From positions 1-52,836 of the forward strand of contig JAQZAZ010000021.1 of assembly GCA_029239355.1 (NCBI GenBank): DNA of 52,836 nucleotides. Direction: 5' to 3'. Of this stretch, positions 6,585-11,199 are shown in pieces (the first letter of the stretch is position 1; each line of letters begins with the position of its first letter). The DNA is from Sphingobacterium sp. Its GTDB lineage: Bacteria > Bacteroidota > Bacteroidia > Sphingobacteriales > Sphingobacteriaceae. The translations under genes were made by a program, and so were the position numbers. The notes under the pieces were generated by a model. It saw only the letters and a list, made by a program, of their open reading frames with translations, searched no databases and was not told the DNA's origin.

Positions 6585-7079
6585 CTATTTTTTGATTGGT
6601 TTAGACCTTTTACGTTTCCGGTATTCTTTATAATTTCCATGTTTTTCGTATTCCAGTGTACCTTCCTCACAATAACTACTGAGATAAACAGAAAATTTAT
6701 TGCTTTGCCCCTTGTTGGCATTCAACTGTTGGATGATATCAGAAACACGACGGGGTATTTCGAAAAAATTGGAATTGTAAACAAGATCATCCAGTTCTTT
6801 CGTCAGTTCAATACGACGTTTTGACTCAGGAGGAATATTGTAGAGCGGTGTTAAATCTATTTGTTTTTTGAATATGGTATGTGGTTGAATTTTTAAAGCG
6901 CGACAGATCAAAATAAAGTTGTTCAATGAGGCACCTTTTCCTTTTTCAGCAGCTGCTATTGTGTTGGTGGTCAATCCCGTCATATTGGCTACATCTTTCA
7001 GGGTGTAGTATATTTTTTCACGTTGAATGCGCAATTGCTCGCCAATTTCCTCCAGTATATGCTCATTGATATCTCCCAT
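6585..7079 (-). CDS. XRE-family transcriptional regulator
   Basis: 164-aa DNA-binding protein with an N-terminal Cro/CI-type helix-turn-helix at about residues 12-68 (LRIQREKIYYTLKDVANMTG, then LTTNTIAAAEKGKG). A longer C-terminal part contains a basic tail, KRKRSKPIKK. The length is typical of stand-alone regulators with an extra dimerisation segment. It is divergent from the array island. Its own upstream DNA holds a 16-bp palindrome with a TTTGCGCAAA core, and the same core recurs in the array leader, so I infer that it controls itself and perhaps the array. No antitoxin or phage context is visible. Confidence 0.85.
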   Translation of the reverse strand: MGDINEHILEEIGEQLRIQREKIYYTLKDVANMTGLTTNTIAAAEKGKGASLNNFILICRALKIQPHTIFKKQIDLTPLYNIPPESKRRIELTKELDDLVYNSNFFEIPRRVSDIIQQLNANKGQSNKFSVYLSSYCEEGTLEYEKHGNYKEYRKRKRSKPIKK

Positions 7080-7131
7080 AATACAAATGGAAAACTTATT
7101 TGCGCATTTTTAGAATAATAATATTTGTATT

Positions 7132-7147
7132 TTATTTGCGCAAATAA
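7132..7147. promoter_or_regulatory. Candidate XRE operator, proximal palindrome
   Basis: Perfect 16-bp palindrome TTATTTGCGCAAATAA, 53 bp upstream of the XRE start codon. A partial copy, TTATTTGCGCA, lies at 7097-7107 between it and the gene. Assignment to the XRE protein is by position only. Confidence 0.5.
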
Positions 7148-7362
7148 ATATTTGTTTTTATATTTGTTTCAACGGAAGCCGATAACTAAATATGATCTAG
7201 AACAACAGGCTTAGAGCGGAGGTTTAATCTGTTGTTATACGACTAAAATCTAAATAATGAGAGAATTAAGTGTTAAAAATATCGCAAAGTCACCAGAATA
7301 AAATTGATTTCTATTTTATAGACTTGTATCTAGCATCCTATGTTGATAACCCCTATTATTGA

Positions 7363-7391
7363 CTTGTAACTGCCATTCAAAGCATGGGATT
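7363..7391 (+). other. Near-copy of an array spacer in the leader region
   Basis: These 29 bases match the spacer at 8353-8381 at 27 positions in the same orientation. The flanking DNA is only weakly repeat-like (ATGTTGATAA at 7340-7349), with no intact repeat. It could be a protospacer for self-regulation or the remnant of a decayed array unit. Confidence 0.55.
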
Positions 7392-7454
7392 AATAAAAAA
7401 TATAATTATTTGAATAGTTGAAATAGACTTTTTATTGAGTTTATAAAAAAGCTG

Positions 7455-7468
7455 TTTTTGCGCAAAAA
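7455..7468. promoter_or_regulatory. Candidate XRE operator in the array leader
   Basis: Palindrome TTTTTGCGCAAAAA with the same TTTGCGCAAA core as the site next to the XRE gene. A half-like copy, TTATTTTGCG, follows at 7476-7485. It sits about 115 bp before the first scaffold RNA element. Confidence 0.4.
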
Positions 7469-7543
7469 TAAAGTAATTATTTTGCGTGAAGGGTGTTCTT
7501 TGACTTATTGGTATTGAAAAAGGAGAGAATATAAAAATATAGG

Positions 7544-7567
7544 CCGATCAGATGTATTGTTGATCGG
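7544..7567 (+). other. Hairpin just before the first scaffold element
   Basis: Perfect 7-bp stem CCGATCA / TGATCGG with a 10-nt loop, followed by TTT. It may be a weak terminator or the 5' stem of the scaffold RNA. The second scaffold copy does not have it. Confidence 0.4.
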
Positions 7568-7581
7568 TTTGATTAGGATAG

Positions 7582-7739
7582 GAGGCATCTTGTTATGCCG
7601 TAGGGTGAGCGCAATGGTGACTCACTAAATACCCCTTTTTATAAAAATGTTGGTTAATATTTTATGCTATGTTCTTGATTATTATTACGATACTAGGAGG
7701 TAGGATGTTAATGATATCGAAATGAAGGGTATACGCAAC
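7582..7739 (+). repeat. Direct duplication, copy A (scaffold, spacer 0, first repeat)
   Basis: This 158-bp segment recurs at 8196-8352 with scattered substitutions and 1-nt indels. It contains the scaffold RNA element, a diverged repeat-length stretch, a 30-nt spacer-like segment (7674-7703, 28 of 30 identical between copies) and the first clear repeat of its block. Confidence 0.9.
7584..7640 (+). ncRNA. Candidate guide-RNA scaffold (tracr-like) element, copy A
   Basis: Two hairpins in a row: GGCAT / ATGCC (7584-7588 with 7595-7599, loop CTTGTT) and GTGAG / CTCAC (7605-7609 with 7621-7625, 11-nt loop). They are followed by AATACCCC and T5. ATACCC can pair with GGGTAT near the 3' end of the array repeat. 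Scaffold followed by anti-repeat is the order seen in Cas12f guide RNAs. The alternative reading is an ordinary terminator, because of the T-run. The function is inferred; the hairpins are supported by comparison with copy B. Confidence 0.5.
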
Positions 7740-8199
7740 TGGGCCTCTGGGATATATTTTAAATCATATAATGTTGATGACCTCATAGCGTAGGGTATAA
7801 ACAACAGAGTCTTGTGGCTGTGTTTTCTGATGCCGAATGTTGGTGATATCAAAAATGTAGGGTATACACAGCGTTACAGTTATTCCTCTTTTGTTTTTAC
7901 TGATTCTGATGCTCTCAAAATGCAGGGTTTACAACTCATGGATTACGATTTGCTCATCCTTAGGAGATGTTGACGATTCAAAAAATATAGGGTATGAACA
8001 ATCACCATAAATTTAGTCAAACTTTTCGTTGAGGATGGTGATTATCTCAAAAAGTAGGGTATACACAATCCATTTTGCTCTAAATAATTGATTCCTTATG
8101 ATGTTGATGATCTCAAATGTTGGTTATATATGCAAATAGCTCATGAGCTACTACTGTTTCTTTGCGTGATATTAGAATTTTCAAAATTATAGATTGAGG
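7704..8199 (+). CRISPR. Degenerate CRISPR-like array, block 1 (about 8 repeats)
   Basis: Repeats start at 7704, 7770, 7836, 7902, 7966, 8034 and 8100, with a badly decayed one near 8166. That is a 66-bp register of 36-bp repeats and 30-bp spacers. The consensus begins GATGTTGATGATCTC, continues AAAATG and ends TAGGGTATACACAAC. The GTTG near the 5' end and the CAAC at the 3' end can pair, as in many CRISPR repeats. The last 14 bases are best conserved, as expected of the handle next to a 3' guide in Cas12f RNAs. Spacers are all different. Repeats here are more decayed than in block 2. No cas1 or cas2 is present, so the array probably no longer acquires spacers. Confidence 0.85.
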
Positions 8200-8352
8200 C
8201 TTCTTGTTAAGCCGTAGGGTGAGCGCAATGGCGACTCACTAAATACCCTTTTTTAAAAAATGTTGGGTTACATTCTACGCTATGTTCTTGATTATTATCA
8301 CGATACTAGGAGATAGGATGTTAACGATCTCAAAATGCAGGGTATACACAGC
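8196..8352 (+). repeat. Direct duplication, copy B
   Basis: Second copy of the segment at 7582-7739, inserted between the two repeat blocks. The duplication shows that scaffold, spacer 0 and first repeat moved as one unit and that block 2 has its own scaffold. Confidence 0.9.
8198..8254 (+). ncRNA. Candidate guide-RNA scaffold (tracr-like) element, copy B
   Basis: Same two-hairpin layout as copy A. In the first hairpin the stem is GGCTT / AAGCC instead of GGCAT / ATGCC, so a base pair changed on both sides and pairing is kept. The second stem GTGAG / CTCAC (8219-8223 with 8235-8239) is unchanged and only its loop differs by one base. AATACCC and T6 follow. Selection for RNA structure is the simplest explanation. 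Confidence 0.5.
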
Positions 8353-8842
8353 CTTGCAACTGCCATTCAAAGCATAGGATTGGATGTTGATGATCTCAAA
8401 ATGTTGGGTATACACAACTGAACCAACTTTCTCATTTACCAAAGCACAGATGTTGATAATCTCAAAATGTAGGGTATACACAACAAATTAGCATTTAAAA
8501 TTTATTCTTCCATATGTTGGTGATATCAAAATGCAGGGTATACACAACTTGACAACTCTGAATATTCGATTATTTTAGGATGTTGATGATATCAAAATGT
8601 GAGGTATATGCAATTCGAACTCCTGACGATTTAATTGGATAGGTGATGTTGTTAATCTCAAAATGTGGGGTATCCACAACTCACTCATGAACGAAACCGT
8701 CAAATTTCATGATTCTCATGATGTTAGAATATAGGGTATCCACAACTTCTTCCAAATAAATCTAAACACCTTTTCCCATGTAGATGATTTCGACATGTAG
8801 GTTGTATGCAACGGACGCGAGTAGTAAGTCGACATTCGATAG
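8317..8842 (+). CRISPR. Degenerate CRISPR-like array, block 2 (8 repeats)
   Basis: Repeats start at 8317, 8383, 8449, 8513, 8579, 8645, 8711 and 8777, again with a 66-bp period. The repeats at 8383 and 8449 each differ from the consensus at one position; those at 8711 and 8777 are strongly diverged. The last spacer-length segment ends near 8842. Reading the repeats on the plus strand, toward the sigma factor gene, puts the conserved GGGTATACACAAC end directly 5' of each spacer, as in Cas12f crRNAs. The array ends 165 bp before the sigma-factor start codon. Confidence 0.88.
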
Positions 8843-8867
8843 GCAATTGTCATCACAAAACAAACCA

Positions 8868-8877
8868 ATACCCCACG
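8868..8877 (+). other. Possible anti-repeat downstream of the array
   Basis: ATACCCCACG can pair with TGTGGGGTAT of the repeat at 8645 except for one G-T pair, and with the consensus repeat with one further mismatch. At ten bases, chance is a real possibility. Confidence 0.25.
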
Positions 8878-8918
8878 CTCAATACCAATAAGTTTTTATA
8901 ACCATATAACGATTTACA

Positions 8919-8974
8919 CTTACCCAGCTTCGGTTTTCATAAAATCCGTCAAGTTCCGCCGGAGCTGCGGTAAG
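8919..8974 (+). promoter_or_regulatory. Long hairpin in the leader of the sigma-factor gene
   Basis: Arms 8919-8933 and 8959-8974 form 15 base pairs with a single bulged C and one G-T pair around a 25-nt loop. No T-run follows, so it is not a standard terminator. It ends 33 nt before the ATG at 9008. It could be an attenuator, a processing site that separates array RNA from mRNA, or part of a guide scaffold. Confidence 0.6.
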
Positions 8975-9007
8975 TAATTCATCGCGTACCAATTATAAAA
9001 ACGAATT

Positions 9008-9820
9008 ATGAAACTACTTCTACTAAACAAGGACATCAAAACTGCTATTGAACACCTGCACAATGGTCATGAAAAGGGACTTAAATTTTTCTACCAAAAA
9101 TTCTATACACATTTCCTTTTTCGTGCCCACCGTGCAACCGATGATGAATGTACGGGCGAAAGTATCGTTCAAGAGGCATTTCTCCGTCTTTGGCTGTTCC
9201 GAGAAAATGTGCATTCCGAAACTGAGGTTTTCGAGTTTCTGAAAGTCCAGGTAAAGTCTGCCATTCAGGCTTTTTATCAAAAATCACGTAATAGATTTCA
9301 CCGAAGCTTACTCCGCCTCGACAGCATCGAGGACTATCAGGAGTTTATGCTGGGCTATGAACTCGAAGAGGAAAGCGAAGACGATGTGCTTTATATCGAA
9401 CAATTGGAATTGGAGAAGAAAAAGAAAATGGATCAGCTCAATGCCATTCTGCCCAATCTCAACAGCGATCAACAGCTTTTTATTCGCCTTTGCCTCAAAT
9501 ATAGTTTTAACTATGAACGTATCGCTTATTATATGGGAAATATATCTGATTATGAGGTTGGTCTACAAATTGAGAAAACAATCGAATACCTGCGTTCCAT
9601 CATTAATAGTGAAGAGAAAATGCAGCTCATGGCTAAACCTGTGGAATTTAAATTAAATGGCGAAATGACTGAAGAGGAGGCTGAAGTCTTCCGCATGCGC
9701 TATGAATTACAGTATTCTTTTGACAAGATTTCAGAAGCGTTACAATTGGATGGGGGAGAGGTGCGTACATTATTTATTAATGCACATGCAAAAATTAAAT
9801 CTGCTAAGAAAACGGCATAA
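9008..9820 (+). CDS. ECF-like RNA polymerase sigma factor paired with dead Cas12f
   Basis: 270-aa protein. Residues about 17-100 resemble sigma-70 region 2 (ESIVQEAFLRLWLFRENV, the core-binding helix of ECF factors). Residues about 143-200 resemble region 4 (LPNLNSDQQLFIRL, then YERIAYYMG). A second region-4-like helix-turn-helix follows at about 219-267 (MTEEEAEVFRMRYELQYSFDKI). Typical ECF factors of 160-200 aa have only one. No anti-sigma gene is adjacent. The gene starts 165 bp after the array and ends 16 nt before the Cas12f-like gene, so the two form an operon. I infer that the Cas12f-guide complex, rather than a -35/-10 sequence, brings it to DNA. The sigma assignment is good; the partnership is inferred from linkage. 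Confidence 0.8.
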   Translation: MKLLLLNKDIKTAIEHLHNGHEKGLKFFYQKFYTHFLFRAHRATDDECTGESIVQEAFLRLWLFRENVHSETEVFEFLKVQVKSAIQAFYQKSRNRFHRSLLRLDSIEDYQEFMLGYELEEESEDDVLYIEQLELEKKKKMDQLNAILPNLNSDQQLFIRLCLKYSFNYERIAYYMGNISDYEVGLQIEKTIEYLRSIINSEEKMQLMAKPVEFKLNGEMTEEEAEVFRMRYELQYSFDKISEALQLDGGEVRTLFINAHAKIKSAKKTA

Positions 9821-9836
9821 CTAAACATAAAAAGAT

Positions 9837-10931
9837 ATGGCAGCTGATACAATGATATTGACCCGCAAAATACAGGTCTTTGTGGATTGTGATGATAAAG
9901 AAAAACGATCGGAATATTTTAAACAGCTCTTTGGATGGCAGGATCTTGTCTTCCGTGGTGCTAACATGGTCATCACCCACCAATATGTACAAGAGAATCT
10001 CAAAGATCTAATCTATCTACAAGAAGATGTGAAAATAAAACTTGCAGACCAGGCAAAAGATCCGGAAGGTGTATTGAATACTTCACGGATGAATACAACT
10101 TATCGCCTGCTGTCCAGTTATTTTAAGGGACGAATTCCTACGGATATTCTATCACAGATAAACACGGCTTTAATCAAATATTTTCAGGCAGATCGTCTCT
10201 CATACTGGAAGGGTGAAAAATCACTCCGCAATTATAAAAAAGACATGCCAATTCCCTTTTCTGGTAGACAAATTAACTTGAGTAAAGATGAGAATAATAG
10301 AGATTTTAAATTCACACTATTCAAAATACCTTTTCGGACATACCTCGGTAAAGACCGATCGGATAAAAGGGTGTTGCTCCAACGTGCACTCGTGGGGCAG
10401 ATCAAAATCTGTAGTAGCGCACTCAAAATTGTTAAAGGTAAAATCTTTCTGCTCTTGGCTCTGGAACTTCCGAAAAAGATCAAAGAATTGAAAGATAACG
10501 TTATCGCCGAAGCGTCGCTTTCCATTGAACACCCTATTGCTGTAGTCATCGGTAAGGAATCCTTTCAGATCGGTAATAAAGAAGAGTTTACTTACCGCCG
10601 TATGGCTATCCAAGCAGCGCGACATCGTTTGCAGAAGGCTGCCGCATTTGACAAAGGTGGGCGTGGGCGTAAGCGGAAAATGAAAAGCTTGGAACACTAC
10701 GACGAAAAGGAGAAAAATTATGTAGATACCAAACTCCACTTGTATAGCCGGAGGTTAATAGAACTTTGTGTGAAAGCACAAGCGGGTACACTCTTGTTAG
10801 TCAACCAATCCAATAAGGAAGAAATTGCAAAAGGCGATGAATTCCTGTTGCGCAACTGGAGCTACTACGGCCTTATCGAAAAGATTAAATACAAGGCCAA
10901 AATGGTCGGTATTAACATCATTATTGAATAG
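9837..10931 (+). CDS. Nuclease-dead Cas12f/TnpB-like RNA-guided DNA-binding protein
   Basis: 364 aa, shorter than most Cas12f. The N-terminal half (wedge/REC-like) has RKIQVFVDCDDKEKRSEYFK at 10-29, then NTTYRLLSSYFKGRIP at 86-101 and YWKGEKSLRNYKKDMPIPF at 123-141, typical of this family. The RuvC part begins near 225. The usual first Asp (GID) is Glu231 in LSIEHPIAVV. A basic helix at 254-281 corresponds to the TnpB bridge region. The usual Glu of the second motif (IxxED) is Asn323 in LLLVNQSN. The chain ends in LIEKIKYKAKMVGINIIIE, exactly where the zinc ribbon and the last catalytic Asp should follow. All three catalytic positions are therefore changed or missing, so DNA cleavage is not expected. 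No transposon ends or tnpA are nearby. It most likely binds guides from the array and recruits the adjacent sigma factor. Confidence 0.85.
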   Translation: MAADTMILTRKIQVFVDCDDKEKRSEYFKQLFGWQDLVFRGANMVITHQYVQENLKDLIYLQEDVKIKLADQAKDPEGVLNTSRMNTTYRLLSSYFKGRIPTDILSQINTALIKYFQADRLSYWKGEKSLRNYKKDMPIPFSGRQINLSKDENNRDFKFTLFKIPFRTYLGKDRSDKRVLLQRALVGQIKICSSALKIVKGKIFLLLALELPKKIKELKDNVIAEASLSIEHPIAVVIGKESFQIGNKEEFTYRRMAIQAARHRLQKAAAFDKGGRGRKRKMKSLEHYDEKEKNYVDTKLHLYSRRLIELCVKAQAGTLLLVNQSNKEEIAKGDEFLLRNWSYYGLIEKIKYKAKMVGINIIIE

Positions 10932-10956: not shown

Positions 10957-11199
10957 ATGTATAATGTAAGTTTAAAATGTAAATGGGATGCAGAGGCTGT
11001 AAGGCAACATCAGGAGCAGGCACTAGACTTTGCGCGACAAGAAGGCCTAGCACAAGGAATAACTGCAAAAAGTATCGAGGTTGTAGAAAATCTCCTTTCT
11101 AAGCTGGAGTTGTCCGATGGTGAGATAGCAGATCTTGCCAAAGTCTCTGTCGAGTTCGTCAAAAAGATCCGTGCTGGCCGGAGAAAAAATAGTAAATAA
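10957..11199 (+). CDS. Small protein resembling the tail of Rpn/PDDEXK_2 proteins
   Basis: 80-aa protein. I chose the ATG at 10957 because the frame upstream of it only overlaps the Cas12f-like gene. Residues 25-72 (FARQEGLAQGITAKSIEVV, then LLSKLELSDGEIADLAKVSV) match the C-terminal region that follows the nuclease domain in Rpn-type PD-(D/E)XK proteins: a helical EG-x-x-x-G segment, then a helix-turn-helix-like end. The nuclease domain itself is absent. It starts 25 nt after the Cas12f-like gene and is probably co-transcribed. It may be a partner or assembly factor of the dCas12f-sigma complex, or the remnant of a mobile gene. The family resemblance is from memory. Confidence 0.6.
   Translation: MYNVSLKCKWDAEAVRQHQEQALDFARQEGLAQGITAKSIEVVENLLSKLELSDGEIADLAKVSVEFVKKIRAGRRKNSK

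Follow-up and report, generated by a model that had tools for sequence, protein, structure and literature searches.

The window, by which we mean the entire 52,836-nt stretch of Sphingobacterium sp. DNA that was analysed, carries a gene for an ECF-like sigma factor, a gene for a Cas12f relative that appears catalytically dead, and, upstream of both, an array of 15 guides. We estimate a probability of roughly 85% that these guides would bring the dCas12f-sigma complex together with RNA polymerase to sites ahead of chosen nutrient-receptor (SusCD) operons, a reading that is based on comparisons of sequences and of database entries. The features concerned are as follows, with positions numbered within the window.

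7363-7391, + strand: predicted protospacer of the first block B guide, pointing into the array (spacer 8353-8381, 27/29 identities)
7503-7517, + strand: inverted repeat, left arm, 15/15 complementary to 8879-8893
7582-7700, + strand: block A leader, a putative scaffold (tracr-like) RNA with two hairpins and the anti-repeat ATACCC, based on a consensus fold; a near-identical copy lies at 8196
7704-8135, + strand: block A with its 7 degenerate repeats; the spacers in between measure 28-30 nt and the spacers of the block start at 7740, 7806, 7873, 7938, 8003, 8070 and 8136, and those at 7740, 7806, 7938 and 8003 have sense SusCD-upstream sites at E ≤ 1e-3
8196-8316, + strand: block B leader, the putative second scaffold copy, based on repeat families and the consensus fold
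8317-8842, + strand: block B with its 8 degenerate repeats and their spacers (repeats 8317-8812, last spacer to 8842); spacers start at 8353, 8419, 8485, 8549, 8615, 8681, 8747 and 8813, and those at 8419, 8485, 8549 and 8615 have sense SusCD-upstream sites at E ≤ 1e-3
8879-8893, - strand: inverted repeat, right arm, pairing with 7503-7517
9008-9820, + strand: ECF-like sigma factor, the partner of dCas12f, 270 aa
9837-10931, + strand: nuclease-dead Cas12f relative, 364 aa, matching PDB 9n9c, with catalytic positions changed or missing

The two open reading frames of the gene pair are on the + strand and are separated by 16 nt. The sigma factor matched NCBIfam sigma70-ECF (E = 6.9e-11, slightly short of the family cut-off) and Pfam Sigma70_r4 (E = 1.6e-4, under the family cut-off), and it matched PDB 9n9q_C, a chain named RpoE, with E = 2e-38. 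A profile built from 26 dCas12f homologues found the chains named 'Nuclease-deactivated Cas12f' in PDB entries 9n9c, 9n9m, 9n9o and 9n9q (E = 8.9e-159), and the same profile found PDB chains named Cas12f effector or nuclease with E = 3e-58; homologues of both proteins are thus contained within one solved entry, 9n9q. The catalytic residues of Cas12f are an Asp in RuvC-I, a Glu in RuvC-II and a third Asp. When the window's protein was aligned to the PDB Cas12f chains, Ser227 occupied the position of the RuvC-I Asp and about Val322 that of the RuvC-II Glu, and the C-terminus, residue 364, fell upstream of the zinc finger and the third Asp, both of which are retained in a 506-aa Cas12f chain. The AlphaFold model of dCas12f had a mean pLDDT of 80.6 and a pTM of 0.56. 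The original prediction, that a Cas12f-like protein without catalytic residues is encoded 16 nt after an ECF-like sigma factor, was therefore confirmed by the reading frames and the PDB alignment, and the dCas12f-sigma precedent that it had mentioned is found in PDB 9n9q, with its chains named 'Nuclease-deactivated Cas12f' and 'RpoE'. An 80-aa open reading frame at 10957-11199 was considered as a third component and rejected, as it had no match in 14 related loci; it weakly resembles the terminal part of a recombination-promoting nuclease of the Rpn family (E = 0.0048) and is probably a fragment.

Co-occurrence of the two genes in relatives had been set beforehand as a test whose failure would refute the RNA-guided transcription reading. 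dCas12f was present in 24 of 151 family genomes and sigma in 23 of 151, and every one of these 23 was also dCas12f-positive; the reading passed this test. Sigma adjoins dCas12f for 23 of 26 dCas12f genes, a count in which two pieces in G099 were taken as one gene; the non-adjacent ones are in G112, which gave no sigma hit, in G132, where sigma is on another contig, and in G076, where the gene is at a contig edge. Of note, the sigma gene at G057:C9:201459-202230 and the dCas12f gene at G099:C29:55688-56768 were each read as two overlapping pieces, which suggests frameshifts in the genes or in the assemblies.

The array contains 15 degenerate repeats of 36 nt each at steps of 64-68 nt (about 66), and its two leaders are covered by two repeat families that are 87-88% identical. 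Twelve of the 15 repeat copies scored 27-35 of 36 against the consensus and three scored 20-22, two of which owe this score to a one-base shift; the highest scores elsewhere in the window were 19-22. Both the step and the 3' part of the repeat, which is GGGTATACACAAC in most copies, are conserved, and the remaining repeat sequence varies. The distance from the end of the array to the start codon of sigma is 165 nt. The CRISPR-like array that had been postulated upstream of the gene pair is real and regular, with its 15 repeats in two blocks, and the locus does hold a multi-guide array; as described below, spacers of this array and of its sisters match sense-strand sites ahead of SusCD operons. 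The perfect 15-nt inverted repeat that flanks the whole array, both arms of which were present in 8 of 10 related loci checked, may be a shared operator, part of a promoter or a recombination site. An XRE-type helix-turn-helix gene lies beside the array on the opposite strand (window 6585-7079), and such genes are also found on the opposite strand beside target operons (L168 8821-9282 and, called by eye, L165 8495-8941 and L283 4524-5006).

The leader folds into two hairpins, and 4 of 13 base pairs were changed on both sides among 23 copies. With a pattern of the second hairpin, the scaffold was detected in 71 of the best 80 of 287 dCas12f loci, including L126, and no Rfam family reached the gathering score within the window. 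In loci with arrays, the anti-repeat ATACCC (or GTACCC) goes with the repeat GGGTAT, and ATACCT or ATACTT with AGGTAT. Duplex energies of scaffold and repeat were not better than those of shuffled sequences, and anti-repeat stems in single-guide tails were found in 21 of 40 cases versus 33% in shuffles, a weak enrichment; the clade-wise co-variation of anti-repeat and repeat is better evidence for pairing than these single-guide stems. By these comparisons the array resembles a single-guide RNA, as relatives have it, that has been divided into one scaffold part and a series of repeat-guide units. At least three periodic repeat pairs were apparent in 23 of the best 80 of 287 dCas12f loci, upstream of the gene pair in Sphingobacterium loci and downstream of it in four Parapedobacter loci (L080, L082, L083, L097) and in L067 and L092. 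Four loci, L109, L092, L093 and L084, contain 4-6 complete scaffold copies in a row and no repeat arrays (in L109 four, 128 nt apart), and we propose that such tandem copies are a second way of holding many guides. An extra scaffold-like copy away from the array of its genome, at G155:C188:62204-62276 (80% identical, E = 4e-9), may be an orphan guide locus or belong to a second system.

Whole-genome searches with the arrays yielded full-length spacer matches outside arrays, for example 31/31 for an L048 spacer in its own genome and 30/30 for the window spacer 7740-7769 in G153. The usual layout at the target was a 124-127-aa open reading frame and/or a thioredoxin-like gene, followed by SusC, SusD and another thioredoxin-like gene, and the one target SusC tested exceeded the TIGR04056 cut-off. 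A near-invariant stretch of DNA in an early gene marked 69 SusCD operons in 10 genomes, and the reversed pattern was not found. This marker is a 26-nt coding stretch (FSLSAQTPR; for example G000:C117:21264-21289) of which the DNA hardly varies, even at wobble bases, between paralogous operons or between genomes. Breaks of several contigs lie close to this stretch, and it may reflect recombination or an RNA element. The motif was derived from loci hit by spacers, and the choice of regions was independent of strand and distance. We fetched 68 of the 69 operon regions, 217 kb in total, omitting G151:C99 at a contig start, and several of them were shortened by contig ends. The spacer set comprised 150 spacers from nine arrays (window, L048-L053, L117 and L120) called wherever a repeat scored 20 of 36 or better. 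A small number of its units are false, L052_7467 and L117_7172 among them, which are conserved upstream DNA, and the set misses some true ones. L054 was excluded from it, and the G142 array was handled separately.

At E ≤ 1e-3 the 150 spacers gave 170 sense matches and 1 antisense match in the 68 SusCD-upstream regions, with 66 spacers matching 55 regions, and shuffled spacers gave 0.0 sense and 0.4 antisense matches in the same regions (five shuffles per spacer, preserving base composition only). At E ≤ 0.05 there were 290 sense and 12 antisense matches, against 16.4 and 12.0 for the shuffled spacers, thus the weak antisense matches are at chance level. Since related spacers and related operons make matches non-independent, we used counts of spacer clusters, which were 48 sense versus 1 antisense; 127 distinct sites underlie the sense matches. 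No SusCD-upstream match at E ≤ 1e-3 was obtained for 84 of the 150 spacers, and at this threshold none of the spacers had a match in a further 192 kb of DNA, made up of the flanks of dCas12f loci and of the window outside 7001-9000. The window's own SusCD and TonB genes, considered as targets, were rejected with 0 spacer matches at E ≤ 1e-3. The distance from site to operon marker ranged from <200 nt to 3.4 kb, several sites being located within upstream genes, and a composition table for 126 protospacer sites, inspected by eye, showed no evident base pattern at a constant spacing downstream of them.

These data bear on the possibility that the guided dCas12f blocks transcription by occupancy, as TldR does, with sigma as a mere genetic neighbour. 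A guided binder that does not cut can repress, and TldR, a TnpB relative, does so (PMC13418256); the sites within genes would also fit. We nevertheless regard this explanation as improbable, as the linkage of dCas12f and sigma is strict and homologues of both occur in one PDB entry, the 48:1 preference for the sense strand is not obviously needed for blocking, and sites as far as 3.4 kb upstream would block little. RNA-guided recruitment of the sigma factor remains the preferred reading.

Sites in the arrays' own genomes with at least 28 identities were found for L048, L049, L050, L051, L053 and L117. In G142, a complete genome in a single contig, one spacer of the seven-repeat array matched a single place with 29/30 identities, in the sense orientation and 2.0 kb upstream of a SusCD operon. 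Regions of the own genome were not matched more often than others at E ≤ 1e-3 (15/61 vs 131/551), and for matches with at least 27 identities the figures were 6/61 for own genomes vs 23/551 for others; in G157 the array matched 0 of 7 of its own SusCD regions. One L048 spacer matched its own genome with 30/30 identities on the opposite strand within an S41 peptidase gene (L140 6529-6558, - strand), with no SusCD operon directly downstream, and this site is retained in G153 (L145). The L083 array of Parapedobacter luteus, which has a different repeat, gave matches in its own and sister genomes. Nine such places without an array were examined; in L272, L274, L277 and L281 the match shared its strand with a long open reading frame and coincided with or preceded the beginning of that frame, which in L281 looks SusC-like by eye. 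Of the remaining places, L275, L278 and L280 are within genes, L268 is further up the L274 contig and L266 is a longer similarity. The Parapedobacter matches are suggestive support for the same reading in another genus.

Of the window's own spacers, 8 of 15 had a sense SusCD-upstream site at E ≤ 1e-3, seven of these in relatives only. Spacer 8419-8448 was the sole one to reach this threshold in an operon region of its own genome (G000:C117, 24/30), and a ninth spacer, 8681-8710, has a 28/29 match in G142, likewise ahead of a SusCD operon. The window's own genome is a 316-contig assembly in which three contigs, C117, C265 and C267, stop a short way from the operon motif, and for this reason the lack of own-genome targets may be an assembly effect. 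The first guide of block B, spacer 8353-8381, matched 7363-7391, upstream of the array (E = 2.9e-4 over the whole genome). This site is conserved in 8 relatives, but the surrounding DNA is likewise conserved, no guide matching the site was seen in the arrays of these relatives, and its 5' flank, TTGA, fits the YYR-type motif described below only in part; that the guide may feed back on transcription of the array is therefore a suggestion.

Cas12-type guides are expected to show a motif of this kind on the 5' side of the site and a seed at the 5' end of the guide, and both were apparent here. When the best site of each cluster was taken (n = 48), position -1 was a purine in 39 and position -2 a pyrimidine in 40, with a pyrimidine at -3 in 37 and a T at -4 in 29; all four positions exceed background, and we refer to the motif as YYR. 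The mean number of mismatches was 0.83 in guide positions 1-10 versus 2.29 in positions 21-30. One would not expect such a seed and motif to persist in decaying relics or recombination products that hold fragments of SusCD-upstream DNA without a function. The degenerate repeats, the many unmatched spacers, the absence of a preference for own genomes at E ≤ 1e-3 and the location of the window's best matches mostly in relatives would all suit functionless relics, yet both the spacing of the repeats and their GGGTAT end have been retained and co-vary with the scaffold, and the sigma and dCas12f reading frames are retained across the family, which makes this explanation very improbable. That the locus is a CRISPR immune system or its remnant, with spacers from invaders, is still less probable: the locus does combine a Cas12f relative with a scaffold RNA and an array, and Cas12m is an immune effector that binds without cutting (PMC11013384), but the spacer matches lie in chromosomal DNA upstream of SusCD operons and on a single strand, a sigma partner is present, and Cas1 (PF01867) was found in 0 of 10 genomes, compared to 9 of 14 control genomes.

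In the RNA-guided activation that we favour, we predict transcription of the scaffold and of the repeat-spacer units, and pairing between them by way of the anti-repeat ATACCC and the repeat GGGTAT, which co-vary between clades. dCas12f with scaffold and guide would then bind a site with a 5' YYR, a motif that has statistical support, and would not be expected to cut, given the absence of catalytic residues in the alignment. It would recruit the co-encoded sigma factor and RNA polymerase, as the relatives solved in one PDB entry suggest, and the polymerase would transcribe the way the protospacer points, toward the operon, in line with the 48:1 strand bias. Transcription and processing of the array, formation of the complex, recruitment of polymerase and activation of the downstream operon are steps that we infer. 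The idea with which the analysis began, that guide RNAs choose where RNA polymerase starts, is supported by the sigma linkage, by PDB 9n9q and by the sense sites upstream of SusCD operons.

RNA-guided transcription by dCas12f and sigma in Bacteroidota was reportedly described in 2025, and the relative L126 is from Allomuricauda (Flagellimonas) taeanensis, which we take to be the species of that work. The dCas12f-sigmaE system is said to need a minimal 5'-G motif, whereas the motif here is YYR. By the features tested, which are catalytic loss, a linked sigma factor, a scaffold guide RNA and sense upstream sites, the window's locus belongs to these dCas12f-sigma systems. It resembles dCas12f-sigmaE (PDB 9n9c, 9n9m, 9n9o and 9n9q) in its homologous dCas12f and sigma, in the catalytic loss and in the gene pair, and the sense sites upstream of genes that mark that system were found here mostly across sister genomes. 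The L126 dCas12f is 52% identical to that of the window and is directly followed by the same scaffold RNA, but L126 has one compact scaffold-guide unit and no array, whereas the window has 15 guides in two scaffold-plus-repeat blocks. TldR works with one guide and represses, in contrast to the system described here with its sigma partner, many guides and sense upstream sites. It is alike in being a RuvC-dead relative of TnpB/Cas12 that acts in gene regulation (PMC13418256). Type V-F Cas12f and type V-M Cas12m share with the window's locus a scaffold (tracr-like) RNA, a repeat-spacer array and a Cas12-type 5' motif, and differ from it in that here catalytic residues and, in the 10 genomes, Cas1 are absent, the targets are chromosomal operons and there is a sigma partner; the active RuvC nuclease that defines type V-F CRISPR-Cas is, by alignment, lacking in the window's Cas12f relative. 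The dCas12f-sigma system itself is known; as far as can be told, the novelty lies in an array that holds many guides and changes its content, and in the identification of a target operon family.

The changing content became apparent in eight near relatives (L048-L053, L117 and L120) with dCas12f proteins 97-99% identical to that of the window and the same layout. The nine best dCas12f loci are all named Sphingobacterium, eight at 97-99% identity and the ninth at 90%. Their arrays have 1-3 leaders and 10-23 called units. The 150 spacers of the nine arrays fell into 102 clusters, of which 70 were singletons (96 clusters under a looser rule), thus the guide list turns over between sister species with nearly identical dCas12f. 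The list of activated operons would likely evolve faster than the proteins, as guide sets change between sister species, and one guide, with its matching site upstream of the array, may act back on the array's own transcription. A broader and tentative reading, to which we give somewhat less than even odds, is that these arrays might constitute a rewritable regulatory memory: free of Cas1, they would list addresses of receptor operons that are edited faster than species diverge, and would choose the SusCD paralogues displayed through RNA-guided recruitment of sigma, while a single guide would act back on the array. If true, nature would here employ multiplexed CRISPR activation to diversify the cell surface. 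Natural RNA-guided activation is a recent idea, and the locus offers what may be an addressable regulatory network, with a multi-guide array, SusCD targets that include a thioredoxin-like gene, a 5' motif and divergent guide lists in sister species. This makes reprogramming of surface receptors by editing of the guide array testable, as well as the origin of spacers without Cas1.

Finally, one 'spacer' is common to five arrays (L048 8070, L049 8211, L050 906, L051 8541 and L052 8367). In most copies it reads TATATTTGTTTT after TTGACAAT, which resembles the consensus of a Bacteroidota promoter, and it may be an internal promoter rather than a guide.
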